The notes under the pieces were generated by a model. It had not been told where the DNA came from, made no database searches, and saw only the letters and a program-made list of their open reading frames with translations. Positions 8,304-57,835 of a stretch of DNA of 64,000 bases are shown here, piece after piece. A program made the position numbers and the translations under genes. The DNA lies in the NCBI RefSeq assembly GCF_038811545.1, contig NZ_CP133319.1, forward strand, positions 2,261,516 to 2,325,515, written 5' to 3'. The DNA is from Rhodoligotrophos sp. CJ14 (GTDB lineage Bacteria; Pseudomonadota; Alphaproteobacteria; Rhizobiales; Im1). Numbering within the stretch: position 1 is the first letter of the stretch; each line of letters opens with the position of its first letter.

Positions 8304-9257
8304 TCAGTTAGGGTGCCAAATGGACACAAGACCGTCAAGGCTAAGTCTTTCTGACTGAATAGTTTTTTCAACTGTGTCAAAAAAGTCACCTAGGCCGATC
8401 GCGCTTAGAAGCAGCCGCGCGGCCTGGGCACCGAGGCCAAGCTCGCTCGAATCCGGCACGGGCCAGTTTACCACTTCCAGATCACGGGAAATGTTCCTCT
8501 GGGTGCGCAGCCAGTTCAGCGCCTCCTCTTCACCGCCAAGTTCATCGGCCAGGCCGGCCACCACAGCTTGGCGGCCGGTAAACACGCGCCCATCCGCGAT
8601 CTGGCGCACATCGCCGATGCTCATGCCTCGCCGTTCTGCGACAAGCCCCACGAACCAGTCGAAGCTGTCATCGACGAGCGCTTGAGTTACCCGCCGCACG
8701 TCGTCGCGCAGGGGTGTGAAGGGGGATGGCTCTGCTTTGAGCGGACCGCTCTTGATCTCGTTCATCGAGACCCCGAGCTTGCTCAGAAGCTCCGTTACCT
8801 CTGGCCATTGCAGAATGACACCGATCGATCCGGTGGTTGTATTGCCCAAGGCCACGATGTGGTCGGCTGCGATCGCGGTAATATAGCCGCCGGAAGCGGC
8901 AACAGTCCCCATGGTGGTGACCACCGGCTTGACGCCAGCCAGTTCACGAATGGATTTGTAGAGGAGTTCGGATCCCGCCGTGGTGCCGCCCGGGCTGTTC
9001 ACCTCGATGATGACGGCTTTGACCCGGCTGTTCTTCCGCAGGTCTTCCAGAAGCTTCTCATATCCATCGGTGTCGGCGATGACACCCGAGACCCGCACGC
9101 GGGCGATATGATCTTGGAATTTGTTGATTTCTGTGGTTCCCGCGCTGGCAATTATGGCGATGAGTATCGCCCCGAGCACGGCGAGAACCGCGAAAACTCT
9201 CCAGAAGGAAAGCCGCCGCTTGAGGCGGCGGCGATCAGCAAGAATGTCAGCATCCAT
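8304..9257 (-). CDS. sppA: Signal peptide peptidase SppA, short (36 kDa) type
   Basis: About 317 residues; an inner membrane serine protease that clears cleaved signal peptides. One N-terminal transmembrane segment (about residues 18-40) places the catalytic domain in the periplasm. The serine nucleophile lies in TTTGSIGV near residue 135, the lysine in the KSGPLKAEPSPF segment, and INSPGGT is the ClpP-like oxyanion loop. I took the ATG at 9257; the GTG at 9260 directly before it is an equal candidate. Located between rpsA and ihfB. Confidence 0.92.
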   Translation of the reverse strand: MDADILADRRRLKRRLSFWRVFAVLAVLGAILIAIIASAGTTEINKFQDHIARVRVSGVIADTDGYEKLLEDLRKNSRVKAVIIEVNSPGGTTAGSELLYKSIRELAGVKPVVTTMGTVAASGGYITAIAADHIVALGNTTTGSIGVILQWPEVTELLSKLGVSMNEIKSGPLKAEPSPFTPLRDDVRRVTQALVDDSFDWFVGLVAERRGMSIGDVRQIADGRVFTGRQAVVAGLADELGGEEEALNWLRTQRNISRDLEVVNWPVPDSSELGLGAQAARLLLSAIGLGDFFDTVEKTIQSERLSLDGLVSIWHPN

Positions 9258-45560: not shown

Positions 45561-47213
45561 ATGGCTGCACCGAAAATCGTTCTGTTCGCCGGTCAGCGCG
45601 CCAATGACCGTGATACGCCCGGGCCCTTCCCGCCGGCCATCGAACCCGCCGTGCGCATCGCGATCAGAACCAAGCTCGAGTCTTACGGCAATCTGATCGG
45701 TTATGCCTCGGGCCAGGCCGGCGGCGATATCCTCTTCGGCGAGGAACTGCTCGATCTCGGCGGCATCCTGCACATTCATATCCCATGCGAGCGCGACGAC
45801 TTCATCAGCCAGTATGTCGCGCCCGCCGGCCAACCCTGGGTGGACCGTTTTCAGCGCCTCTGCGCGCGGGCTGCGAGTGTGAATGTCAATTGCGAGGAAC
45901 GGCTGCTGGGCGATCCAACGCTTATTCGTTTTAACAACCAGGTGCTGCAAGGCATGGCGCGCCTCGACGCCGAAGCGCGGGGGACCACGGCGCATCTCCT
46001 GCTCCTCTGGAGCCCGAGCGCCCCCGCCGAGCTCGGCAGTCCGGCCGACTTCATGGATCACTGGCCGGAATTCGACCGCCTGTCCATTATCGACCTCGAC
46101 GAACTCTCCGGGGCTGATGATGCCGTCCCTGAACCATACACTGAGGCATTCGCCGAACTCAGCACGAGCCCGCGCGCCATTCGCGCCATTCTGTTTGCCG
46201 ATATCGCGACCTATACGAACTTCCGTGACGACGAGATCCCGCTTCTCTTCGACCTCTTGAGCGAGGCGCAGCAGCAGGTCGAAACACTGACCAGGCCGCC
46301 GCTGCTGATCAATACATGGGGCGATGCGATCCACGCCGCCGCTGAAACGGCCCACGATCTTGCCGATTACGCTGCAGCCCTGTCGAATGCGGTCGCCGCG
46401 ATAGATCCCGCCCGCTATGGCCTTGCCCGATCACCACGCTTCCGCATTGCGCTTCACGCCGGGCCCGTTTTCGTCGGCATGCACCCGATGACCGGCCGCA
46501 GTATGATATTCGGCCACCATGTGAACCGCGCCGCGCGCATCGAGCCCGTAGCCGTCCCCGGTGAGATCTTCGCATCCCAGCATTTCGTCGCTTTGTTGCG
46601 CGCCGAGATGGACGAGCGCCTCTATGAGGCGGCGATGACCGGTGTCCCCTATTCGCCGCGCTATTCCGTGGAGTATCATGGCACTGTCGAACTTCCGAAG
46701 CAGTTCGGGCGGGAGGCGGTCTATCGGCTGATCGATCGGCACAAATCCGCCTCGCCGGAAGAGTTGGAAAGGCCGTCTGTGTCCGAGCAGTCCGTTCCGC
46801 CGAGCCTGCACGCGGTGATCCGCAATGATGTCGCCGAAATCGAGCCCTTGGCCTCGAAGGTGGACGAGTTCTGCGGCATGCATGGGATAAGCCCCGAGGT
46901 CGCCCATGCCGTCAATCTCTCGCTCGAAGAGCTGCTCACCAACACCATTCATTATGGCTATTCGGATAAGCAGGAGCACATGATCGAGGTGGGACTGACC
47001 CTGCAAGGCAGCAAGCTCCTTGTCCGTATCAGCGACGACGGCGAGCCCTATGACCCGCGGCAAACCCCCGAGCCCGACCTCGAATCGGACCTGGACGAGC
47101 GCCAGGTGGGAGGCCTTGGCGTCCATCTCGTCCGCCAATTGATGGATAAAATCGACTACAAGCGGCAAAAGGGCCGGAACCAGGTCGTGCTGACCAAATC
47201 GTTTGCCGCCTGA
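45561..47213 (+). CDS. Rossmann-like / class III nucleotide cyclase / RsbW-like ATPase fusion
   Basis: 550 residues with three parts. Residues 1-190 are a Rossmann-like sensor (IVLFAGQRAND, GYASGQAGGDILF) seen at the front of some bacterial cyclases. Residues 205-395 are a class III cyclase: metal aspartates Asp214 (FADIATYT) and Asp255 (WGDAIHA), transition-state Asn322 and Arg326 (VNRAARIE), but the purine-selecting Lys is Asn252, so substrate or activity is uncertain. Residues 408-550 are an RsbW-type HATPase with Asn461 in SLEELLTNTIHYGY and GGLGVHLVRQLMD. No transmembrane helix. The STAS gene follows after 53 bases, suggesting that it binds this ATPase domain. Confidence 0.87.
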   Translation: MAAPKIVLFAGQRANDRDTPGPFPPAIEPAVRIAIRTKLESYGNLIGYASGQAGGDILFGEELLDLGGILHIHIPCERDDFISQYVAPAGQPWVDRFQRLCARAASVNVNCEERLLGDPTLIRFNNQVLQGMARLDAEARGTTAHLLLLWSPSAPAELGSPADFMDHWPEFDRLSIIDLDELSGADDAVPEPYTEAFAELSTSPRAIRAILFADIATYTNFRDDEIPLLFDLLSEAQQQVETLTRPPLLINTWGDAIHAAAETAHDLADYAAALSNAVAAIDPARYGLARSPRFRIALHAGPVFVGMHPMTGRSMIFGHHVNRAARIEPVAVPGEIFASQHFVALLRAEMDERLYEAAMTGVPYSPRYSVEYHGTVELPKQFGREAVYRLIDRHKSASPEELERPSVSEQSVPPSLHAVIRNDVAEIEPLASKVDEFCGMHGISPEVAHAVNLSLEELLTNTIHYGYSDKQEHMIEVGLTLQGSKLLVRISDDGEPYDPRQTPEPDLESDLDERQVGGLGVHLVRQLMDKIDYKRQKGRNQVVLTKSFAA

Positions 47214-47266
47214 AAGGTACCCTATGTCCGCCGCCCGGTCCGCCAGTGAGGAGTGAGGATCCCGCA

Positions 47267-47602
47267 ATGGAAATAGATCGCGAACAGCGCGACGGCATCG
47301 ACGTCATCGCACCGGTGGGCCGCGTTGACAGCAATACGGCGCGCGACCTCGAATCAGCGCTGCTGCCCGCCTTCGATGGGGGCCGCAAGGTCATCGTCGA
47401 CTTCTCGCGTCTGACCTATATTTCCAGCGCCGGACTTCGCGTTCTTCTGCTCGCCGCCAAGCAGAGCAAAGCCAAGGCGGCCGACCTTGCTCTGGCGGGA
47501 ATGACGCCGCAGGTGCGAGAAGTGTTCACGATCAGTGGCTTTGCCAAGCTGTTCAGGATCTATCCTGATGCCAGCGCCGCCGTGTCAGACCTCAACGGGT
47601 GA
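47267..47602 (+). CDS. STAS-domain anti-sigma factor antagonist (RsbV-like)
   Basis: 111 residues, one STAS domain. The phosphorylation loop LTYISSAGLRVLL has the conserved serine pair. RsbV-like proteins bind RsbW-like kinases when unphosphorylated and are phosphorylated by them. It directly follows the fusion carrying an RsbW-like domain. The ATG at 47267 has GAGGAT upstream. The last 18 bases overlap the end of the convergent alr gene. Confidence 0.92.
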   Translation: MEIDREQRDGIDVIAPVGRVDSNTARDLESALLPAFDGGRKVIVDFSRLTYISSAGLRVLLLAAKQSKAKAADLALAGMTPQVREVFTISGFAKLFRIYPDASAAVSDLNG

Positions 47603-48721
47603 TCCGTCCCTGAGATAGGCCCGCCGGGTTCCCGCGCCGATCTGGGTGAGAAGCGCATTCGGCGCGCAGCCGATCCAGCCCGCCACTTTGTCCACGGTCT
47701 GCTTGCTGTCCAGGAACACCGCCCGCTCACCGGGCGCTGCCGCCCGTTCTGGGAGATCGGTCACATCGAGCATGGTCAGATTCATCGCAATGCCGCCGAC
47801 GATCGGAACCTCATTTCCCGCAACCCGCACGCGACACTCCCGGCCAAACCCTTGCGGTAATCCGTTGCCATAGCCAATCGCGGCAGTCGCAATCACCGAA
47901 GGCCGCTTGAGACAAGTTATGCCGCGATATCCGATGGTGGCGCCTTCCGCAGCGCGCGCAACCCGCAGAATGGGCGCCGTGAGGCGGTAGCAAGGCTCAA
48001 GCCCATCCTGCCATGTGGTCGAGGTCTGCACGCCGTAAAGCGCGCTGCCGACCCGGGCAATATCGAAATGCCAATCCGCCCCCATAAAGAGGCCTGACGA
48101 GGAGGCAAGGCTGATCGGGGCAGCAGGCAGATGGGCAAGCCAGCTCACCAGCCGTTTTCGCTGCGCCAGATTGCTTTCCGCATCCGGGAGATCGAAGGCC
48201 GCGAGATGCGAGACCCAGGCCTTGATCTCGAGGGAAGCGAGGCTGCCTCTATCCTCCGCAAGCCGGATGACATCCGCCTCATCGAGGCCGAGGCGTCCGA
48301 GCCCCGTGTCCAGCTGAATGGCGACCGCTAGCCTGCTTTCCGCCCTGCGCGCCGTGGCCGCACAGAGGGCGACTTCGCCGCGGCTCACCAGAACCGGTGT
48401 GATGCGGCCAGTCGCGAAATTAGCCGGATCCTCTCCCTGCAACCCATGCAAGGTGAAGATCTCCACTCGCGGCGCGATCTCCCTCACGGTCATCGCCTCT
48501 GCCAGATCGCGGACCCAGAAATGGGTGCACCCCTCCTGGAGAAGGGTCTTCACCACCGGCGAAAGCCCGAGCCCATAGCCGTCATTCTTCACGACCGCCG
48601 AGAGAGTGCGGCCCGAATAGCGTTGCGACATGGCCCGGTAATTGGCCGCGATCAGCCCGAGATCGACCTCCAGGACCGCTCCGGCCCGCCACGCATCTCT
48701 CGCATTGACCTCATGAGGCAT
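47585..48721 (-). CDS. alr: Alanine racemase
   Basis: 378 residues. PLP enzyme supplying D-alanine for peptidoglycan. The PLP lysine is in SAVVKNDGYGLG (usually VVKADAYGHG), and the second catalytic residue, Tyr, in GATIGYRGI; GGIAMNLTMLDVTDL and the C-terminal PNALLTQIG are conserved. The altered KNDGYG loop marks a divergent Alr branch. It overlaps the STAS gene tail to tail and follows the GNAT gene by three bases. Confidence 0.88.
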   Translation of the reverse strand: MPHEVNARDAWRAGAVLEVDLGLIAANYRAMSQRYSGRTLSAVVKNDGYGLGLSPVVKTLLQEGCTHFWVRDLAEAMTVREIAPRVEIFTLHGLQGEDPANFATGRITPVLVSRGEVALCAATARRAESRLAVAIQLDTGLGRLGLDEADVIRLAEDRGSLASLEIKAWVSHLAAFDLPDAESNLAQRKRLVSWLAHLPAAPISLASSSGLFMGADWHFDIARVGSALYGVQTSTTWQDGLEPCYRLTAPILRVARAAEGATIGYRGITCLKRPSVIATAAIGYGNGLPQGFGRECRVRVAGNEVPIVGGIAMNLTMLDVTDLPERAAAPGERAVFLDSKQTVDKVAGWIGCAPNALLTQIGAGTRRAYLRDGSPVEV

Positions 48722-48724
48722 GGC

Positions 48725-49399
48725 TCAATGCCGCGGCGCGTAAAAGATCTCATGCGCGCCCTTCGCCTTGCGCCAGGCAACGCCTTGATGCCCCGCGCCC
48801 AAAAGCTGGCGCTGGCGCCCGATGGCCTCCACCGCGCACCATTCTCCTGAACGGGCTTGCCGCACCGGCTCGTCGACCGTGCGGGTCAGCAGAAACCGCA
48901 GGTGTCCGCCATATTGCTCCTTCAGCGCACAAATGCCGAAACCTTCGCCTATGAGATTTGTCCAGCTCCGGTGATTGCCCGGGGCGGAGGTGGAATAGAG
49001 ATGGCGGAAGCCGAGCGAGCGCGCTGCCTCGATGCGCCAAGCGATCAATTGCGAATGGAGTCCACAGCCCCACGCGGCCGGGCGCACCGATGTGCCCGCG
49101 AGCTTTGCCAGGCTCGCACTTCTATCGAGCCCGAGCGGCCCATAAGGGTCCTCCTCGATCGAAAGATCCCACTGGAGCACCCCATAGGCGAGGAGGCCCT
49201 CATCATCAAACAGGCCGACGATGCGGCCGGCGCCGGACACCATCTTCTCGAAAAACGCACGACTTTCCGGCCTGATGAGGTCGGGGCGCCCGACCTTTTG
49301 TGTCGCGGCAAGATGCAGCTCATGCACCGCCGCCACGTCCGCAGCCCCGATTTCCCGCCACTCCGGCGCAACCCGCATCGAGTTCACCGCGACAGTCAC
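48725..49399 (-). CDS. GNAT family N-acetyltransferase
   Basis: About 217-224 residues. The acetyl-CoA region VRPAAWGCGLHSQLIAWRIE and SAPGNHRSWTNLIGEGFGI follow the GNAT pattern; the N-terminal half (EIGAADVAAVHELHLAATQKVG) is the usual first strand and helix. Substrate unknown. GTG at 49399 or ATG at 49378 could start it. It is three bases upstream of alr, so the two are co-transcribed. Confidence 0.72.
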   Translation of the reverse strand: MTVAVNSMRVAPEWREIGAADVAAVHELHLAATQKVGRPDLIRPESRAFFEKMVSGAGRIVGLFDDEGLLAYGVLQWDLSIEEDPYGPLGLDRSASLAKLAGTSVRPAAWGCGLHSQLIAWRIEAARSLGFRHLYSTSAPGNHRSWTNLIGEGFGICALKEQYGGHLRFLLTRTVDEPVRQARSGEWCAVEAIGRQRQLLGAGHQGVAWRKAKGAHEIFYAPRH

Positions 49400-49440: not shown

Positions 49441-50460
49441 TTAGCCTGTCAGGACTTCCGCGTAATTCAGCATCTCAATCGGGGGGTATAAATCCAATTC
49501 TTTTGCGACTTTCATATTAATGATGAGCGAAAATCTCTTGAGGGTTTCGATTGGAAGATCCTCCGGCGGAATTCCCTCTTGCAGGATCTTCAGCGCCTTC
49601 GAGGCCGCGAGCTGTCCGACCGAATAATATCGGGCGACAAGGGCAACCAGCGCGCCGCCCTCGCGAATGGCCAGCTCCGCGGCGCCGAAAGTCGGCAGCT
49701 TCTGTGTCAAAGCCGCCGGCACGACGATCTTATACTGAGTGCCAAGGAAAGTATCGGGCAACAGATAGAGCCAATCGGCACCGGCCGCCTTGATCTCGCT
49801 CACCAGCTCAGGAATGCCCTCGGCGCTCGGGCGCCCCTCGACCATCTTGAATGTCCGCGCGATCAGCTCGAAACCGAGCTTTCCCTGCAAGGCCTCGAGC
49901 TCCTCCACGATCGAGACGGAGTTCTGCTCCGTCGGGGTGTACATCACCCCGATCTTCTTGAACGGCAGATAGGATTCCATCGCCCGCAGCTGGGTTTCCG
50001 TCGGCACCACATGCACGGCCCCCGTGACGTTGCGCCCGGGATGCTGCGTGCTTCTCACGATTCCCGCCTGGACGGGCGCGGACACCAGGGCAAAGACGAT
50101 CGGCCGCTCGGTGATGTATTTGGCCTTGTCCTCCGCATCGTAGCGGCCGGCGATGCCCAGCGTCACCGGCGTGCCCCAGGTATAGACGAGGTCGGGCTTC
50201 AGGGCGCGGATCTCCTCGATAAAGCCCGGCAGGCGGGCCGTGTCCCGATCCGCATCCCGCTCGATGAACTCGACACTGGCGCCATTGGCGGCGAGATAAT
50301 CGTCAAACCCTTCTTCGACCGCGGTGCGGCCGCGATAGGTGATGCGATAGATCCGTTTCGGCGTGGTGGACGCGGGCATCTGTGCCAGCACGGGCCAGGT
50401 GGCCCCGTTCAGCAGGGCAGCCGACCCGAGACTTAAGGTTAGGAACTCGCGACGCCTCAT
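49441..50460 (-). CDS. ABC-type periplasmic binding protein, COG2984-like
   Basis: 339 residues. A twin-arginine-type leader (RRREFLTLSLGSAALL) leads a periplasmic binding fold: KRIYRITYRGRTAVEEGF, LKPDLVYTWGTPVT, NVTGAVHVVPTETQLRAM and LLPDTFLGTQYKIVVPAAL. Uncharacterised members of this group bind amino acids, tryptophan-like ligands or others, and usually occur with a permease and ATPase, both absent here. Its start overlaps the stop of the sensor-MFS gene as ATGA. It may deliver ligand to the neighbouring membrane sensors rather than to an ABC importer. Confidence 0.83.
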   Translation of the reverse strand: MRRREFLTLSLGSAALLNGATWPVLAQMPASTTPKRIYRITYRGRTAVEEGFDDYLAANGASVEFIERDADRDTARLPGFIEEIRALKPDLVYTWGTPVTLGIAGRYDAEDKAKYITERPIVFALVSAPVQAGIVRSTQHPGRNVTGAVHVVPTETQLRAMESYLPFKKIGVMYTPTEQNSVSIVEELEALQGKLGFELIARTFKMVEGRPSAEGIPELVSEIKAAGADWLYLLPDTFLGTQYKIVVPAALTQKLPTFGAAELAIREGGALVALVARYYSVGQLAASKALKILQEGIPPEDLPIETLKRFSLIINMKVAKELDLYPPIEMLNYAEVLTG

Positions 50461-52448
50461 GCGGGCTGCCCTCCAATTCTGTGCGAAGACGTCTTCTTTG
50501 TCCTGCCCTGCACGCCAGACGCACCCATCGCGAAAATAAGCGCCCCCGCGATCACCAGGGCTCCGATGATCACCACGGCCGTCTGAAAACCATATAGCCC
50601 GAGGAGGAACCCGGCGATCACAGGGCCGAGAGCATTCCCGGTGCGTTCCACCAACCGGAAGATGCCGTAGAGCGGACCATCGCCGATGGGCTCTTGCAGC
50701 ATTTTGCCGAACTCGCCCACCAGCGCCGATTGCGGTGCGATACTGATCGCCTGTCCGATCCCGAGGCTTGCGAGCATCGCGCCGAGCACGACGAGGCTGC
50801 TGGCATCGATCATCACCAGCAGCGAACCAAGGCCCGCAATCGCCCCGCCTGCCGCGACGAAGGCCACCCGCCGGTTCCACCGGTCGGCGAGCGAAGCAAA
50901 ACTTGGGACCAGCAGCACCATGATCAGCGGATAGATCATGAGCATTCGCCCGATTGCCGCTTGGTCCTGCCCGATATCCTTCATATGCAGCGGCATCAGG
51001 AAGAAACACACGGCGACCAGCAGGATCTTGGCCGGCATGGCGCAGCAGAAGAATAGCGCGACGAGCTTGGGCGAGCGGAATGTCGCCCCGAAATCGCGCG
51101 CTCGGATCGGCGGTCCGGAAGGCTGATGTCCGGGCGTGCGGGGAATGCAGAGCAAGGCGAGAAGCAGGCTTAAGCCCGCCATCGCGCCCGCAACGAGAAA
51201 AGCGATCTCCATGCCGAGCCGATCGGCGATGATGCCGCCGATCGGTGGCCCGCACAGACCCGCTACCAATATCGCACCGATGAACACCGCCATGCCGCGG
51301 GCACGCTGCCCAGCGGTGGTGTTATCGATCACGAACCCCTGAGCTCCCACGAAGACCAGCGCAAAGCCCACCGCCGAGAGCGCCCGCGCCAATGTGAGGC
51401 TCACGAGATCCGGTGCGAACGCAGCGCCACAATAGCCGAGGGCCCCCAACACCGCGCCCCAGAGCAATGACGGCCTGCGTCCGTAGCGCTCCGTGAGCCC
51501 GCCCAGCACGGGCTGTGTGAGCGCCACGATCGCCAGGAACACGACCATTGGCAGACTGATCACCAGCTCGGGTGAAAGCCCCGGAATGGGGGATGCAAGC
51601 CTCTCGATATAGATCGGCAGGAAGGGCCTCGTGAGCTCCTCCGCGAACATGAACACGAACAGCGGTGCCCTGATCGCGATGACGGACAGAGCTTCAGGCG
51701 CAGCAGTCTCGCCCAGGTGAAACTTCTGCTGAAGCCCCTTCAACGCCTGTTGAGCACTCGCCTGCCCGCGTTCGGCAACCAGGCTCCGAAGCGCACTGAA
51801 GCGCTGATTGAGGCCGGAAAGCCGCTGATCGATGAGAGTTGCAAGCTTGCCAAATTCGCTGCGGCTGTCGACGGGTGTATGCGGCCGGAGATCGCTATGG
51901 CCAATCGCATAGACCCTGCTCTCGACACCCTCGATGGCCCCGTAAAGCCCGGCCCCGAAACTGATATAAAGCAGTTCCAGTGCGACCAGCGCGGTCACCA
52001 CCGTGACGATCGCCAGGTCGATCCACATCTTGTAGATGACGCTCTGCACGAAGGCCGGGTCGAGGCTCACCACCGCATAGGCCTGTGGCGGGGTTCCACT
52101 GCCGATCGGCGCCCTCACCGCAGATACGGCCGCGTCAGCATCAAGGCCTGCACCATAGAGCCTCTGTCCCGCCGGATCACTGATGCTGACCGCTGAAAAC
52201 TCCGGATTGCCCGCGAGAATGCGGCTGAGATACCCGTCCAGCCCACGCATCTCACCCATCGGTACGCCCACCTCCAGCGCCCGTTGCATCAGCGCGCCGA
52301 CCGAGCGGGCGACCGTTTCCGCCTTATGCTCGACCTCTGGCAGGAGCAGGGCTTCTGCCCGCTTCGTCGTCTGAAACGACAGATAGGCGAGCGCCGCCAC
52401 GAGCATCGCGACCAAGGCAGCCGAAAGCCGAAGCTGGATGCTGTGCAT
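50457..52448 (-). CDS. Membrane sensor fused to an MFS transporter
   Basis: 663 residues. Residues 8-26 are a first helix, 27-140 an extracytoplasmic sensor (GVPMGEMRG at 61-69, then AVSISDPAGQRLYGAG), about 143-170 a second helix, 166-235 a HAMP-like and coiled segment, and 258-650 a 12-helix MFS transporter with TERYGRRPSLLWG and ADRWNRRVAF loops. The front half is built like a chemoreceptor or histidine kinase input; the output is a transporter. The sensor is shared with the three genes that follow toward 55.7 kb. Overlaps the binding protein gene. Confidence 0.88.
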   Translation of the reverse strand: MHSIQLRLSAALVAMLVAALAYLSFQTTKRAEALLLPEVEHKAETVARSVGALMQRALEVGVPMGEMRGLDGYLSRILAGNPEFSAVSISDPAGQRLYGAGLDADAAVSAVRAPIGSGTPPQAYAVVSLDPAFVQSVIYKMWIDLAIVTVVTALVALELLYISFGAGLYGAIEGVESRVYAIGHSDLRPHTPVDSRSEFGKLATLIDQRLSGLNQRFSALRSLVAERGQASAQQALKGLQQKFHLGETAAPEALSVIAIRAPLFVFMFAEELTRPFLPIYIERLASPIPGLSPELVISLPMVVFLAIVALTQPVLGGLTERYGRRPSLLWGAVLGALGYCGAAFAPDLVSLTLARALSAVGFALVFVGAQGFVIDNTTAGQRARGMAVFIGAILVAGLCGPPIGGIIADRLGMEIAFLVAGAMAGLSLLLALLCIPRTPGHQPSGPPIRARDFGATFRSPKLVALFFCCAMPAKILLVAVCFFLMPLHMKDIGQDQAAIGRMLMIYPLIMVLLVPSFASLADRWNRRVAFVAAGGAIAGLGSLLVMIDASSLVVLGAMLASLGIGQAISIAPQSALVGEFGKMLQEPIGDGPLYGIFRLVERTGNALGPVIAGFLLGLYGFQTAVVIIGALVIAGALIFAMGASGVQGRTKKTSSHRIGGQPA

Positions 52449-52450
52449 GT

Positions 52451-53152
52451 CTAATTGCTCTCTTCCAGCGCCCGGAGATCGCTGGCGGCACGGGCGATCG
52501 CATCCCCCGAATTGCCATCTGCCAGTCGGCGCGCGCGAGCATGGAGCTGGCGCATCACCAGGAACGCGGCAATGCTGCCGGCCAGCACCGCCGCAAGTCC
52601 CGCAGGCAGAGCGTCCCTCGCAACCGCGCCCGCGAACGTCCTCGTGTTGTGGACCATCGCCGTCCGATCATATCGGATGAGAACCCGGCCGATGGCTGCA
52701 CCGAAATCATTGAGCACCGGCAAGGCAACGTCGAAGGATGTGCCATCCGGTTGCTGCCGGGTGCCGATGCGCGATGGCTCGCTGCTGAACAGCGTCAGGC
52801 CCTCGGCATCTTCGACATCGATCGACAGAATGCCGGCATCCGTGCTGGCCTGCCGCTTCAGCAGATCCGGCAAGGTGACCTGCTCCGTGAGGGGAATTCC
52901 AAACGATGTGGCCGAGAGAATATCGCGCTCGAGCTCATGGGCGATCACCTGCAGCCGCGAGCGGATCAGTTCTGTATAGGCCGCCCGCACGCCGCTGAAA
53001 TTCATATAGGCCCCGAGCGCCATGGCGAGGCTCACGATGACGGCGAAAAGCGGCAGGGTGCGGAGGGCGAGGCGAAGCATGGACGGTAAACTGAGCTGTT
53101 CCTGCGGCGGCCGGATCGCCCGCCTCTCGAAATGTGGCGAAATACTGTCCAT
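52451..53152 (-). CDS. Two-helix membrane sensor protein, stand-alone
   Basis: About 233 residues: helix 1 at 30-50, an outside domain (FGIPLTEQVTLPDLL near 84-98, then ILSIDVEDAEGLTLFSS), helix 2 near 183-203 and a short cytoplasmic tail. It matches the sensor part of the adjacent MFS fusion but ends after the second helix. Two bases upstream of that fusion gene and on the same strand. I used ATG 53152; the frame is open to 53212. It may dimerise with the fused sensor. Confidence 0.75.
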   Translation of the reverse strand: MDSISPHFERRAIRPPQEQLSLPSMLRLALRTLPLFAVIVSLAMALGAYMNFSGVRAAYTELIRSRLQVIAHELERDILSATSFGIPLTEQVTLPDLLKRQASTDAGILSIDVEDAEGLTLFSSEPSRIGTRQQPDGTSFDVALPVLNDFGAAIGRVLIRYDRTAMVHNTRTFAGAVARDALPAGLAAVLAGSIAAFLVMRQLHARARRLADGNSGDAIARAASDLRALEESN

Positions 53153-53222
53153 GACATTGCGTCCGCCATCCGCTACCGTCAAATGGAGTTTCCGAAGTGG
53201 TTCCTGCCCCAACAGTCTCTAG

Positions 53223-54029
53223 ATGTCGCCATCGGCAAAAATTGTCTGTGTGCTGTCCCTGATCGCCGCGGCAGGGCTGATCCTGTGCGCCCTGCTGATC
53301 TATGGCAGCCTCGACCGGTCTAGGGTTGTGGTAGCGGAATCCAATCTGAACTTCGTTCTCAATCAGCTGCGCAGCTCCATCGAGGCGAATGTAAATCTCG
53401 GCCTTCCCTTGGCCGATATTCGCGTCACTCAGAACTTGATCGAGCAGGCGCGCGCCAATGACAGTGAGATTCTGGCCGTCGAAATCTTCTCCCGCGCGGG
53501 AATTTCTCTATTCAACACCGATCGCGGCAGCATAGGCGAGCCGGTGCGCGATACCTGGCGGGATGCGGTGCGCCGGTCCAATGGCGGCAACCGTTGGGCG
53601 ATCGAGGAGTTTGGCGACATCGTCGTCGGAGAGGTCATCCGCAACGATTTCGGCGAACCGCTTGGCTACATCGCCATCACCGTGGATGGTGATGCGCGGG
53701 ATGCCTATGCGGCGGCGATCACCTCTGCCTTGGCCCGCCGCCTGATGATCGCGCTTCCCCTGGCATTGCTTGTCGTGGCCGGGATCTCGGCGCTGATCAT
53801 TGCTGGGGCCGGCGCAAATCTCCGCAAAGCCGCACAGCGGCTGAGCCCATCTCCGGCCACCACTGAGACCGCTGCCTCCGCACCACGACCTGCTGCGGGG
53901 GAGGATGATCTGGCCTCGCTTGCCGATGCGGCCGGGGTCTCGATAGCCAGGCAGGTAAGCCATCTCGATCAAACCGCGCAGGCCATTCTGGCGCTGGATG
54001 AGGATACTCAGGCCAATGCCAGCATTTGA
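53223..54029 (+). CDS. Two-helix membrane sensor protein, stand-alone, second copy
   Basis: 268 residues: helix 1 at 6-28, an outside domain with LGLPLADIRV (59-68) and ILAVEIFSRAGISLFNTD, helix 2 near 172-196, and a short cytoplasmic tail rich in Ala. The arrangement and motifs mirror the divergent gene at 52451-53152, so the locus looks like an inverted duplication of sensor plus sensor-MFS. Overlaps the next gene by 14 bases. Confidence 0.77.
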   Translation: MSPSAKIVCVLSLIAAAGLILCALLIYGSLDRSRVVVAESNLNFVLNQLRSSIEANVNLGLPLADIRVTQNLIEQARANDSEILAVEIFSRAGISLFNTDRGSIGEPVRDTWRDAVRRSNGGNRWAIEEFGDIVVGEVIRNDFGEPLGYIAITVDGDARDAYAAAITSALARRLMIALPLALLVVAGISALIIAGAGANLRKAAQRLSPSPATTETAASAPRPAAGEDDLASLADAAGVSIARQVSHLDQTAQAILALDEDTQANASI

Positions 54030-55734
54030 GAGGACGCCACCAGCCGTCTTGGCCGCTATTCTTGGGCTCCTGGTTGCGCTGAGTGTCGGTATCGGCGCGG
54101 TCTATCTGCTGCGGGAAGCCCAGCGCGAAGGTGTGGCCGACCTCGCCCACACCACCGAGGCGGGGGCGGAGGCCGTTGGCCGGGCTGTCGCAGATCAGCT
54201 CGATCGAGCCCTCGGCTATGGCATTCCGCTCGCCCGCATGCGCGGCGTCGAGGCCTATCTCCAGAAGATCGTGGAAGGCTCACCGCAAGTTCAGGCCATC
54301 GCCGTTCTGGACACGGGCGGGAAACCTCTCTTCGCCACCGGCAATGTCAGCAATGGGCTGACATTCCCCCTGCGATCCGGTGGGACGACGGCCGGCACTA
54401 TCGCACTTCAACCCGCGCCACCTCTCGTCGCCAGCATGGTGACCCGCCTTGACGTCGCCATTGCCGCAGCTTCACTGTTCTGCGGTCTGATGGCAGGCCT
54501 CGTGGCCTATCTCTTCATCATTCATCATTTGCGCTCGGCAGAGCGGCGGCTCGCCAACGCGCTGATCGAGATTCAGCAGGGCCGCACGGATATCAATCTG
54601 CACAGCACGGGACGCGGTGTCGTACGGGATGCCTTCGCCGCGCTGGATCAAGCCGTGCAGCCCATCCGGAATGCAAAGCGGCGCGTCGAGGATGCTGCCG
54701 CCACCGTTCGCGCCATCGATTTCGACGGCAGCTTGCGCGAAAAGCTGGACGATCTGCTGCATGATGCGGCTTTTCAGCCGGCGCCCGAGGCGAGCCGAAG
54801 GCCATCCGGGTCTGCTGTCGGCGAGGATGCCCCGCTCTGGCCGGCGGCGATCATCGTCGCCTGCTATTGCGCGGCCGCTCCGCTGATCGCCAACTATGCC
54901 ATTGACCGCGAATGGTCCCTGGTCTCACGGCCGTGGTGGCCCAGCATTCCAATTGTGATCGAGATATTGGCAGGAACCCTGGCCTGCCTTATTGGGGCGC
55001 GCCTGGCGCAGCCGACCCGCCGTATTGCCGGCGCGATCGGCCTGCTGATCGCGGCTGTGGCAACCGCCAGCCTGGCGTTCACCCGGTCCTATGACCTGTT
55101 CCTGGCATTGCGGCTGGCCTCGGGCGCAGGCTTCGGGCTTCTCCTCGCAGCGGTTTTCGCCGGGCCTCGCGGCGGAAGGGAAATGGGCAGAGCCTGGCGC
55201 CTGGTGCTATTCGCCGGCACCTGCGCCGGGCCACTTTTCGGCGGCCTCATTGCCGAGGCCATTGGCCGCCGCCTGACATTCCTGGCCATCGGCGCGGCTT
55301 TGATCATCACCACCTTTCTCATCCCGCGGCTGCAGAGGCCTAAACCGGTCGCTGCCGTGGCGGGAGTGATTTCTGCCTTCCGAATCATGCTCTTGACCGC
55401 CTTGGGTGTGGTCCTCGGTGCAATCGCCCTCGTCTGGATTCCAAGCCAGCCCGGTTACGACAATTACCTCATTGGCGGCGGCCTCATCGCAGGTCTGGGT
55501 CTCGCCGCGGTCGTCATCGCGCTTGTCCTGCCGAACCCGCCGGCTCGGGCCGCGCTCTCGGGGCTGGCCGTGGGCATGATGGTGGGTGCAACCGTGCCAG
55601 CGCTTGCCCAGACCTACGGGATCGCGCCATTAAGCCTGAGCCTTGCGCTTGCGGCGGCACTGTTCCTGCTCGCCCTCGTCCTTGCGCTCGCATCAGGCGG
55701 GGTGAGATCCAATCCTGCGGGTGGGGTCGGTTAG
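54016..55734 (+). CDS. Membrane sensor fused to an MFS-like transporter, second copy
   Basis: About 572 residues: helix 1 at 11-32, sensor with YGIPLARMRGVEAYL (68-82) and AIAVLDTGGKPLFATG, helix 2 near 147-170, a HAMP-like and helical linker to about 275, and an MFS-like region of 11-12 helices (LARLASGAGFGLL-type signatures, GPLFGGLIAEAIGRRLTF). The MFS part is shorter and more degenerate than that at 50457-52448; transport may be reduced. ATG at 54016 is preferred over 53998 because of the AGGAT spacing. Confidence 0.8.
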   Translation: MPAFERTPPAVLAAILGLLVALSVGIGAVYLLREAQREGVADLAHTTEAGAEAVGRAVADQLDRALGYGIPLARMRGVEAYLQKIVEGSPQVQAIAVLDTGGKPLFATGNVSNGLTFPLRSGGTTAGTIALQPAPPLVASMVTRLDVAIAAASLFCGLMAGLVAYLFIIHHLRSAERRLANALIEIQQGRTDINLHSTGRGVVRDAFAALDQAVQPIRNAKRRVEDAAATVRAIDFDGSLREKLDDLLHDAAFQPAPEASRRPSGSAVGEDAPLWPAAIIVACYCAAAPLIANYAIDREWSLVSRPWWPSIPIVIEILAGTLACLIGARLAQPTRRIAGAIGLLIAAVATASLAFTRSYDLFLALRLASGAGFGLLLAAVFAGPRGGREMGRAWRLVLFAGTCAGPLFGGLIAEAIGRRLTFLAIGAALIITTFLIPRLQRPKPVAAVAGVISAFRIMLLTALGVVLGAIALVWIPSQPGYDNYLIGGGLIAGLGLAAVVIALVLPNPPARAALSGLAVGMMVGATVPALAQTYGIAPLSLSLALAAALFLLALVLALASGGVRSNPAGGVG

Positions 55735-55738
55735 CGCC

Positions 55739-57835
55739 ATGCTGCTGCGAACCCGAGTAACCCTGCTTGTGACGATCGCCTTTGCGCTCGCCTTCGCCGG
55801 ATTGGTGGCAGCGGGCATGCAGCGGGAGCGGTTGGCCGCGATTCCCTACACCGAGATCGGCACCACCGGCCAAGCAGCCTTATGGCGCGAGATCTTGCGA
55901 GACGATACCCAGCCACTCGTGAGCCTCGCCGAGGAAATCTTATCCGATACCGGCTTGAAAGAGGCAGTAACCGCACGCGACCAGTCTCGCATCCGCGTCC
56001 TCGCGAATGCCTGGACCTTTCCGCGCTTTACGACCGGCAGCCTGACGGATCTCCAGATACTGGATGCCGATGGTCAAATGGTATTCGCGAGTTCCACCGC
56101 TGCCGAGCCACCGCGTCTGCTCGATATCAGCACCATCCGCAACATCCAGGCGGGCGCTTTGCCGGAAGGCATTCGGCAGGTGACATCCGATCGCTTCGGC
56201 GTGATCGTTGCCCGGAAATACCCCTCTCCGGCCGGCGATCTCGTCCTCGCACTCGCGGCCTCGGCGAACCCGCCGCTGAGGCGCTTTGCCAGGGCCATGG
56301 AAGCGGATGCCTTCCTGCTCAGCACCCGTGGTCGGCTTGTTGAGGGAACCGCCCCCGACCTTTGGCGTGCTCTGGCTCTTGATCTGCCACAGCGGGCGGC
56401 GACGGTGAGCGAGGCCGATTATGACGGGCGGCTTTATGCGATCACCGCCATACCTCTGGATGACGTGTCATCCGGCTCAGCCGGCCTGCTCGTGACGGTC
56501 AAGGACGCGACCGACACGCTTTCCGCCATAGGCAGACTGACCTGGATCATCGGCGCCGTTGTCCTGGCCATCCTGCTGCTTCTGCTTGGAGGCCTCTACT
56601 TCTATCTGCGTTCGAGCTTCCGCCCATTGGAGAAAGCCGTCTCGGTGCTGGGTGCGCTCTCTCGCGGCGACACGACGGCGGACCTCTCGAAGGAAAGCAA
56701 TGACGAAATTGGTGAGATCGCAACGGCGGTTCATCGCCTCCGTGAGAATATGGTGGCCTTCAACGACACCCGTCGGCAGCGCGAACTCCAGCGGCGCCGA
56801 CAGGAACGTTTCGTGCGCCGGCAGATGGAGACGCTGGCCGGGACGCTCGAGCCGGGCGCGCGCGAGGAGGTTCTGGCCGACCTTCGCCGCATCGTGGCCG
56901 CAACGAGCGGCGCGCTGGCCGAGCCCGATACCGCTCAACCCAATGCCCAGTCCCTGGCGCGCCTCATCCGCGAGGATGACCAGCTCGGACCGCTGGCTGC
57001 GGTGCTTCAGCAGATGTCGAACCGTGTGGTTGAGCAGCATCGCCGCCTCTCCGAACTCATCACCCGGCTGCGCGAGGCGCTCGTGCGGGAAACCCAGCTG
57101 GCGAGCCTGCAGCAGGAGCTGGCCATCGCCCGTGACCTGCAGCGCTCGGTCTTGCCGATCGACTTCCCCGATCGGCCACGGTTCTCCGCCTATGGGCTCA
57201 TGGAATCCGCCCGCGAGGTCGGGGGAGATTTCTACGACTTCTTCGAGCAGGGCGATGGCCGCTTTGCCTTTCTCATCGCCGATGTTTCGGGAAAGGGCGT
57301 GCCCGCGGCCTTTTTCATGGCCATTGCGCGCACTTTGCTCAAAGCGATTGCGCTGTTCGAGAACGAACCGGCCGCCTGCGTGCGCCAGTTGAACGAGCTT
57401 CTCTCGGCGGGCAACGACCAGATGATGTTCGTCACCTTGTTCTTCTGTGTGCTGGATCCCGCAACGGGCGAGGTTGAATATGTGAATGCTGGCCATAATC
57501 CGCCTTATCGCATCACTCAGCCCGGCAAGGTGACCATGCTGCCACCGAGCGATGACCTGGCGGTGGCGATCATGAGCGGTGTCGAGTTTACAAGCCGCCG
57601 CATCCAGCTCGCGCCGGGAGAAACTCTCGTTCTCTATACTGATGGTGTAACCGAGGCCTTCAACAATGCGGACGAGCAATTTGGCGAAAATCGTCTGATG
57701 GCTACGCTGCAGGCAATCCCACGACCAGACCCCAGCGCCGTTGCCCGTGCGATTTCCCAAGCCGTGAAGGAGTTCGAGAGCGGTCACCAACAGTCTGATG
57801 ACCTCACTCTGCTCGTTATGAACTACAAGGGCTAG
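55739..57835 (+). CDS. PP2C (SpoIIE/RsbU-type) phosphatase with extracytoplasmic sensor and HAMP
   Basis: About 698 residues: helix 1, a large outside sensor (LQILDADGQMVFASS), helix 2 near 262-285, a HAMP domain (SSFRPLEKAVSVLGALSRG), a coiled segment, and a C-terminal PP2C domain from about 475 with GGDFYDFF (495), IADVSGKGVPAAFFM, NAGHNPPY, LYTDGVTEAFN and SDDLTLLV. RsbU-like phosphatases dephosphorylate STAS antagonists. Five bases after the sensor-MFS gene. The only STAS protein in the window, at 47267, is the natural candidate target. Confidence 0.93.
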   Translation: MLLRTRVTLLVTIAFALAFAGLVAAGMQRERLAAIPYTEIGTTGQAALWREILRDDTQPLVSLAEEILSDTGLKEAVTARDQSRIRVLANAWTFPRFTTGSLTDLQILDADGQMVFASSTAAEPPRLLDISTIRNIQAGALPEGIRQVTSDRFGVIVARKYPSPAGDLVLALAASANPPLRRFARAMEADAFLLSTRGRLVEGTAPDLWRALALDLPQRAATVSEADYDGRLYAITAIPLDDVSSGSAGLLVTVKDATDTLSAIGRLTWIIGAVVLAILLLLLGGLYFYLRSSFRPLEKAVSVLGALSRGDTTADLSKESNDEIGEIATAVHRLRENMVAFNDTRRQRELQRRRQERFVRRQMETLAGTLEPGAREEVLADLRRIVAATSGALAEPDTAQPNAQSLARLIREDDQLGPLAAVLQQMSNRVVEQHRRLSELITRLREALVRETQLASLQQELAIARDLQRSVLPIDFPDRPRFSAYGLMESAREVGGDFYDFFEQGDGRFAFLIADVSGKGVPAAFFMAIARTLLKAIALFENEPAACVRQLNELLSAGNDQMMFVTLFFCVLDPATGEVEYVNAGHNPPYRITQPGKVTMLPPSDDLAVAIMSGVEFTSRRIQLAPGETLVLYTDGVTEAFNNADEQFGENRLMATLQAIPRPDPSAVARAISQAVKEFESGHQQSDDLTLLVMNYKG

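Follow-up and report, generated by a model that had tools for sequence, protein, structure and literature searches.

Cache-like sensors, MFS bodies and a binding protein encoded beside partner-switching genes suggest a candidate envelope receptor in Rhodoligotrophos sp. CJ14

In this study, a 64,000-nucleotide stretch of DNA from Rhodoligotrophos sp. CJ14 (the window) was found to encode four related sensor proteins (A–D), a COG2984-type binding protein (SBP) and a SpoIIE-type phosphatase (E). We read this set as a multi-part envelope receptor that feeds a Ser/Thr phosphatase partner-switching pathway, with a probability of roughly 0.5. The gene content, sensor homology, enzyme motifs, fusions, linkage and co-occurrence reported below are observations. 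Since relatives keep the set beside a phosphatase switch or type VI secretion genes, it is likely to be more than a transporter, namely a receptor not described before; no description of such a system was found in the literature searched. Gram-negative partner switching may receive an envelope input through this candidate set, as may type VI secretion in other lineages. How a transporter fold turns into a receptor is an old question, which becomes directly testable here since a conserved copy (A) and an apparently decayed copy (D) lie at one locus and relatives display stages of loss.

The minus strand carries a tightly packed run of B, A, SBP, a GNAT-family gene and an alanine-racemase-family gene, with gaps of 2, −4, 41 and 3 bases. 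A (50457..52448) consists of a Cache-like sensor recognised by the sensor profile (about residues 25–145), a HAMP-like linker and a full MFS domain (about 255–645; Pfam MFS_1, 8.7e-41), and its partner B (52451..53152) is a small protein with two helices and, by the sensor profile, the outside module of A. SBP (49441..50460; ABC_sub_bind, Pfam PF04392, 9.8e-36), which has a Tat-like signal by eye, is adjoined downstream by the GNAT-family gene (48725..49399; Pfam Acetyltransf_1, 8.2e-05), and the racemase-family gene (47585..48721; Pfam Ala_racemase_N, 1.2e-44, and _C, 1e-23) ends the run. On the plus strand, C (53223..54029) is again a small two-helix protein with the outside module of A (weak Pfam dCache_1 match, 0.0043), and D (54016..55734) joins an A-like sensor, found by the sensor profile, to a degenerate MFS-like region. 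All four reading frames are open as the sequence-only reading had placed them, and its divergent mirror-image pair, a small sensor plus a sensor-MFS protein on each side, was confirmed from the gene layout; this arrangement fits duplication of one such two-gene unit. That reading ended the set too early, since the C-D run goes on into E (55739..57835, plus strand), which comprises an N-terminal dCache_3-like region (below the Pfam cut-off), HAMP (5.6e-08) and a SpoIIE-type PP2C phosphatase (Pfam SpoIIE, 2.1e-53). It also left out two plus-strand genes at 45561–47602, namely, a class III cyclase domain fused to an RsbW-like HATPase (45561..47213; Pfam Guanylate_cyc, 5.7e-10; HATPase_c_2, 1.1e-25) and an antagonist-type STAS-only protein (47246..47602; Pfam STAS, 6.5e-20) with the SSAG phosphorylation-site motif.

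Relatives were tallied in 63 rows, that is, the window and 61 loci, with L059 giving two rows; L014 and L017, which match L044 and L047 in content, were omitted. Of 60 relatives, 55 were aligned with the window in the A-type set (L103, L105, L106, L114 and L126 were left out), and the D-type set has 15 proteins in the alignment and 16 in the outside-segment profile. Only four candidates per genome were scored in the large genome surveys, and additional weaker copies could have escaped notice.

The outside module proposed to be common to A–D proved homologous by profile-HMM alignment of the sensor segments, which had been suggested with the original observation (98.8–99.8%, against 0.1% for each of three reversed profiles). 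The profiles were built with the helices removed from 60 A, 75 small-sensor and 16 D segments, one A row being without a segment. A aligned with D at 99.8% probability (E 1.5e-26) and with the small sensors at 99.2% (E 1.2e-18), and the small sensors aligned with D at 98.8% (E 1e-15); the further control, A against the binding protein, also gave 0.1%. In each of the four proteins the module is flanked by two hydrophobic helices, and the G-x-P-x motif starts at residues 61 (A), 85 (B), 60 (C) and 69 (D), as counted on the translations and as numbered before. The motif alone was dropped as proof of homology, because its strict form G-h-P-h occurs in only 35/60 A, 32/75 small-sensor and 15/16 D segments; by itself it is weak evidence, and the homology claim therefore rests on the profiles with their controls. 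At E up to 0.01, Pfam Cache models matched some A-type proteins (sCache_3_2 in 5/56, dCache_1 in 1/56) and some small sensors (dCache_1 in 5/47, sCache_3_2 in 1/47), and A–D of the window score below the cut-off. The N-terminus of E was matched at 17% by the A profile, 93% by the small-sensor profile and 49% by the D profile, and the small-sensor profile had no PDB relatives at E up to 0.01. The HAMP-like linker is partly recognisable: Pfam HAMP matches 13/56 A-type proteins, but not A of the window. Survey counts for the sensor profiles (182, 159, 157 and 180) include HAMP parts of other signalling proteins and are not sensor counts.

The pairing of A with a small sensor is widespread. A B-type sensor is fused to A in 16/63 rows, and it is either fused or less than 400 bases upstream in 56/63; among the other seven, four have no upstream sequence, two have the sensor at 407 and 474 bases, and one is an MFS protein without a sensor. 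In a quick-search sensor tree, B and C were told apart by distance, wrongly for L044 and L118 at least, and the tree was therefore read only for its split between A+D and B+C.

Two sensor-MFS fusions had been claimed, and they differ in their MFS parts. A carries a full MFS domain (140.4 bits against a Pfam cut-off of 33.4) with 11 hydrophobic peaks, whereas the MFS of D is degenerate, with no Pfam match in D of the window up to E 0.01 and MFS_1 in only 2/15 D-type proteins at that threshold. The D-type MFS region has about 6 helices, not 10–12, in L052, L120 and L121 and is missing in L119; in L054, a D-type sensor plus HAMP is fused straight to an E-type phosphatase protein. Judged from these sequences, the MFS of D may have decayed to a membrane scaffold. 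The join itself is real: two congeners and members of other families have it too, without interruption, and this wide recurrence rules out a frameshift or assembly artefact. An A match at E up to 1e-30 was found in 55 genomes; for all but G911 and G1050 a wide stretch was available, and in each of these 53 the sensor lies in the MFS frame. The G1050 match has one stop inside.

The idea that a receptor-type input controls a transporter directly keeps its shared module and real fusion, but a transporter as the output is less well supported, the MFS of D being degenerate or lost. On that idea the sensor would gate transport by A, with SBP and the Cache module feeding or switching the MFS directly, and the phosphatase genes would only answer the same condition; we consider this rather unlikely. 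It agrees with the conservation of A: MFS_1 is found in 56/56 A-type proteins (E up to 0.01), several alignment columns are invariant in 56 rows, MFS identity between congeners is 79 and 75% (53 and 47% for D), and within A the MFS is better conserved than the sensor, as expected of a working transporter and contrary to the receptor reading. SBP relatives also accompany A in rows that have no phosphatase nearby. Against a gated transporter, D retains its sensor and loses its MFS, the strict MFS motif A occurs in only 20/56 A-type proteins (relaxed form 37/56; strict form 0/15 in D-type proteins), and the N-terminal type of E is confined to genomes with A. Since the MFS of D is degenerate, shortened, lost or replaced, and since the outputs that can be recognised nearby are encoded by SpoIIE phosphatase, STAS, HATPase and cyclase genes or by type VI genes, we regard a role of the MFS within the receptor as more likely.

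In the window, genes for a SpoIIE-type phosphatase, a STAS protein and a HATPase kinase occur together and make up a partner-switching gene set. E has the active-site motifs GGDFYD, ADVSGKG, TDGVTEA and SDDLT, and SSAG is present in 18/18 STAS proteins. With patterns as written by the analyst, the HATPase N-box was found in 17/19 proteins, G1 in 10/19 and G2 in 9/19, and the last PP2C pattern in 8/19 phosphatases. Among the 63 rows, PP2C occurs in 20, STAS in 19 and HATPase in 20 (L059 counted twice). The N-terminal type of E was matched in 12/289 class genomes, and each of these 12 belongs to the 19 A-positive ones (p 9e-17), whereas PP2C-only matches were not associated with A (4/35, p 0.26). 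In L047 and L048 an E-like protein ends in a cyclase instead of a phosphatase, which, like the low G1, G2 and last-PP2C matches, counts against the receptor reading. By these sequence features, D is tied to E and, by neighbourhood, to the STAS and HATPase-cyclase genes, hence to a putative partner-switching pathway. That the two arms are mere neighbours, with SBP-B-A handling a metabolite and C-D-E forming an independent receptor, appears quite improbable: the sensors are duplicated and homologous, and the N-terminal type of E co-occurs exclusively with A across many family codes. Such independence would agree with the 43/63 rows that have no SpoIIE phosphatase within the stretch read (some stretches being cut by contig ends), a count that also speaks against the receptor reading, and with G336, where a type VI cluster has a C-D-E set at one end and A at the other, about 30 kb away.

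A lies within 40 kb of TssK in 18/21 A-positive genomes carrying TssK, a limit picked after the distances were seen (13/21 at 20 kb); genus code g88 contributes ten genomes (of 55) with this linkage. The type VI association is physical linkage only, since no enrichment was found: TssK is present in 21/52 A-positive genomes (from the 55, with G364, G911 and G1050 left out) and in 20/59 A-negative genomes, the latter chosen by hand from earlier listings and not at random; this similar carriage also speaks against the receptor reading. Neither TssK nor VipB was found in the genome of the window. In the tree with type VI labels, which were assigned by the analyst, L043, L058, L125 and L059 have long branches, and L098 (G835) carries a type VI label even though its contig would have to be circular for TssK to be near.

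The overlap of SBP with A that had been noticed is 4 bases long, and the neighbouring genes (A, GNAT and alanine racemase) include no ABC permease or ATPase. Whether the COG2984 protein always co-occurs was surveyed, and its presence is usual but not constant: it lies within 5 kb of A in 57/63 rows, immediately follows A on the same strand, 400 bases away at most, in 51/63, and is absent in 5 rows with room, which is a further point against the receptor reading. Its PDB relatives are 3lkv, 3lft and 6hni. A self-made signal circuit, in which the racemase and GNAT proteins make an amino-acid-like signal that A exports and SBP and the Cache sensors read back, is highly doubtful despite the tight packing of all five genes, a GNAT gene in 18/63 rows and an SBP match to the tryptophan-binding NCBIfam model TrpX (113.9 bits, far under the 390-bit cut-off), because GNAT occurs in a minority of rows, racemase relatives are found in only 7/62 sources (window included) and the racemase may be a household gene.

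Under the preferred reading of a multi-part receptor, SBP would capture a small ligand outside and hand it to B and A, whose Cache-like sensors would form a pair. The MFS body of A would be the membrane part of this assembly, making A a transceptor with transport perhaps retained. The duplicated pair C and D would relay to E, and A/B would be in contact with C/D/E. E would dephosphorylate the STAS protein, if the signal runs in this direction, and the dephosphorylated STAS protein might then engage the HATPase domain and change the activity of the fused cyclase. In other lineages, as linkage suggests, the receptor within type VI clusters probably helps control the secretion machine. More tentatively, the set could represent a new receptor class, in which a Cache-capped, SBP-served MFS fold is the signal-transducing body and the paralogue D is a pseudo-transporter relaying to the phosphatase only, plugged by lineage into a partner-switching/cyclic-nucleotide pathway or into type VI firing control.

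Gram-negative SpoIIE/RsbU-STAS-RsbW partner switching has been described (PMC8256260, in the passages available), as has SiaABCD (PMC8457831, likewise in part). The window resembles these systems in encoding a HAMP-SpoIIE phosphatase, a STAS-only protein and a HATPase kinase together, and differs in its added putative receptor, which comprises SBP, paired Cache-like sensors and an MFS, and in the fusion of its kinase to a class III cyclase. According to PMC4822843, Cache domains are restricted to proteins that carry output signalling domains, and the word 'transporter' does not occur in the available passages of that source. Like such sensors, A–D have an outside domain between two helices, a HAMP-like linker in some and weak Pfam Cache matches; unlike them, A and D have MFS or MFS-like regions at their C-terminal ends, and no output domain is recognised in B or C. 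The TagQRST-PpkA-Fha pathway of type VI secretion, in which TagST is ABC-type (PMC10482370, in excerpt), is similar as a transporter-like envelope complex upstream of Ser/Thr phosphorylation and encoded with type VI genes. Unlike TagST, the set here would act through an MFS with Cache-like sensors, and linkage is what suggests control of secretion.

UhpC is an example of a transporter fold used in signal reception. CbrA and CrbS are SLC5/STAC histidine kinases in the passages available (PMC9100948). The window set shares with all three a transporter fold serving signal reception. As far as those passages extend, the known proteins have another transporter family or no outside sensor, a histidine kinase output and no binding protein, whereas the window set combines an MFS fold, a Cache-like sensor, SBP and a Ser/Thr phosphatase.

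The sequence-only reading, in which four genes share an outside sensor module, two of them fused to MFS transporters, in a divergent, mirror-image pair, was correct as an observation, with more parts than it stated. The four genes, A to D, are part of a larger gene set including a phosphatase, a STAS protein and a HATPase, which are encoded around them. Two divergent gene runs are separated by a 70-base gap (53153-53222). The minus-strand run begins with the small two-helix sensor B (52451-53152), 2 bases before the sensor-MFS gene A (50457-52448), which overlaps by 4 bases (spacing -4) the gene of a COG2984-type binding protein (SBP, 49441-50460); SBP lies 41 bases before a GNAT gene (48725-49399), itself 3 bases before an alanine-racemase family gene (47585-48721), both assigned using Pfam. 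The plus-strand run starts with the small sensor C (53223-54029), which shares a 14-base overlap with the second sensor-MFS gene, D (54016-55734), and D is followed by E (55739-57835), a HAMP-SpoIIE phosphatase. Left of the minus run, a plus-strand gene (45561-47213) that joins a class III cyclase to an RsbW-like HATPase precedes that of a STAS-only protein (47246-47602, plus); the STAS and racemase genes overlap at their ends. The GNAT and racemase genes (47585-49399) share a run with SBP and A, a possible hint of an amino-acid-like ligand.

One outside module was common to A-D, as previously read. Sensor profiles were built from the outside segments after removal of transmembrane helices, and aligned at 99.8% for A versus D (E 1.5e-26), 99.2% for A versus the small sensors (E 1.2e-18) and 98.8% for the small sensors versus D (E 1e-15); control alignments (three reversed profiles, and A versus SBP) gave 0.1%. 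The N-terminus of E was less similar (17%, 93% and 49% against the A, small-sensor and D profiles). At E up to 0.01, Pfam Cache families were matched by a few A-type proteins (sCache_3_2 5/56, dCache_1 1/56) and small sensors (dCache_1 5/47, sCache_3_2 1/47), and the Cache cut-off was reached by none of the window's proteins. HAMP was detected by Pfam in 13/56 A-type proteins. The modules of A-D most likely adopt one Cache fold.

The sensor tree, obtained by a quick search (63 segments, 16 loci), split A and D from B and C at a cost of 2 label changes, against a mean of 21.3 after shuffling, which suggests, as the simplest reading, that the mirror image would be a duplicated unit of small sensor and sensor-MFS gene. 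A scored 140 bits against MFS_1, a domain matched in 56/56 A-type proteins (E up to 0.01), whereas a Pfam MFS match was absent from window D and present in 2/15 D-type proteins. MFS motif A was found in 20/56 A-type and 0/15 D-type proteins in strict form, and in 37/56 and 2/15 when relaxed. Between the window and two congeners, identity was 79 and 75% for the MFS part of A (sensor part, 68 and 57%) and 53 and 47% for that of D (sensor part, 56 and 49%). Hydropathy gave about 12 helices for window D, 8 for its relatives in L052, L120 and L121, and 2 in L119; the D alignment has one invariant column, the Pro in G-I-P. L054 encodes a fusion in which an E-type protein with a SpoIIE domain follows directly on a D-type sensor and HAMP (Pfam 1.3e-11). 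Glu158 (second sensor helix) and Arg260 (first MFS helix) of A were jointly conserved in 52/56 rows and may be in contact.

A matches, counted at E up to 1e-30 in overlapping genome draws, were found in 6/299 phylum, 19/289 class and 3/4 family genomes, in 3/274 genomes of the class and 13/121 of the family of G098, and in 9/200 and 10/61 of the orders of G207 and G444, respectively, totalling 55 A-positive genomes across these overlapping draws; scanning named genome contigs yielded 6 loci. Full-length E was used as the query against 289 class genomes (E up to 1e-40), equal in number to those searched with A and drawn by the same rule. Matches starting at the N-terminus occurred in 12 genomes, 12/12 among the 19 A-positive ones (Fisher 9e-17); PP2C-only matches, among which G565 was counted because its E-type protein aligned over the PP2C part alone, occurred in 35 genomes and showed no association with A (4/35, p 0.26). 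In 2/12 (G542, G449), the E body ends in a class III cyclase instead of PP2C; these two cyclase-ended E-like proteins are the ones encoded in L047 (3257-5440, Pfam 3.3e-19) and L048 (13979-16162, by reading).

Neighbours were tallied over 63 MFS rows, taken from 61 loci plus the window. A second sensor was fused to A in 16/63 rows; when those no more than 400 bases upstream are counted as well, 56/63 rows have one. The COG2984 protein, whose constant co-occurrence had been put forward for survey, lay directly downstream of A within 400 bases in 51/63 rows and within 5 kb in 57/63; one of the six rows without it stops 416 bases past A. Among the other five, L123 has an SBP_bac_3 protein (8337-9140) adjoining a fused two-sensor MFS protein, and an SBP_bac_3 gene adjoins SBP in L040 (6580-7305). 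Other neighbours were PP2C (20), HATPase (20), STAS (19), GNAT (18), D-type (16), TssC (12) and cyclase (8) genes. A related MFS protein that lacks a sensor is encoded in L059 (192-1949), with genes for HATPase, STAS and SpoIIE phosphatase nearby. Ser/Thr kinase-dCache-HAMP genes lie near A in L108 (5655-8198), L109 (12664-15120) and L111 (5475-7742), and a dCache-HAMP-cyclase gene in L112 and L113.

In some relatives, A and SBP sit among type VI secretion genes, including, by Pfam, TssK, TssC and TssF (L040) and VgrG and Hcp (L041), and also FHA and VgrG (L059), VgrG (L096, L098) and a ClpV-like AAA protein (L046). TssK carriage was not enriched with A (21/52 A-positive versus 20/59 chosen A-negative genomes), and TssK and the VipB sheath were both absent from the window's genome. 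The A-TssK distance was 3 to 36 kb in 18/21 A-positive genomes with TssK, covering 8/11 genus codes (random placement p ~8e-12), under a 40-kb limit fixed after the distances were known; a 20 kb limit gave 13/21, and G835, scored unlinked, would have the two 19 kb apart on a circular contig. Mapped on the A tree, the type VI label takes 4 changes, of which starred branches force 3, and a further 2 for two-context loci, which implies repeated gain or loss of the association. The type VI cluster of G336 is headed by a C-D-E set that includes a PP2C hit (3.9e-35), and A lies about 30 kb off, at the opposite end. This arrangement, in which C-, D- and E-type genes with their PP2C hit lead a type VI cluster that carries A at its far end, is recorded at L139 (7399-12160). 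Kinase-like genes were close by in L135 and L136, and weakly in L143 and L144.

The window's signalling enzymes look intact by motif. E carries GGDFYD, ADVSGKG, TDGVTEA and SDDLT; SSAG was present in 18/18 STAS proteins, and the HATPase N-box pattern in 17/19. Patterns for the other HATPase boxes (10/19 and 9/19) and the last PP2C motif (8/19) were matched less often, possibly owing to variation or to where the domains end. The window cyclase keeps the two metal-binding Asp and the N-R pair, but has Asn (NTWGD) at the position where the substrate-selecting Lys normally stands, leaving its product uncertain. In L051, the cyclase (with TPR-S) and HATPase are encoded by separate genes.

The proposal that receptor inputs control a transporter is probably reversed: the transporter fold more likely belongs to the receptor, with the output probably a phosphatase switch in the window and perhaps type VI secretion in other lineages. 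The overall scheme would probably run from SBP through B/A, C/D, E and STAS to the HATPase-cyclase. A small ligand would be captured by SBP, the loaded SBP would be read by B and A, and the signal would be relayed to C/D and then to the HAMP of E; E would dephosphorylate STAS, which would then engage the HATPase domain and alter the fused cyclase. No recognisable description of a Cache-MFS protein or of this gene set was met in the open-licence PMC literature searched; the combination was not found described there, and the individual parts are of known kinds.
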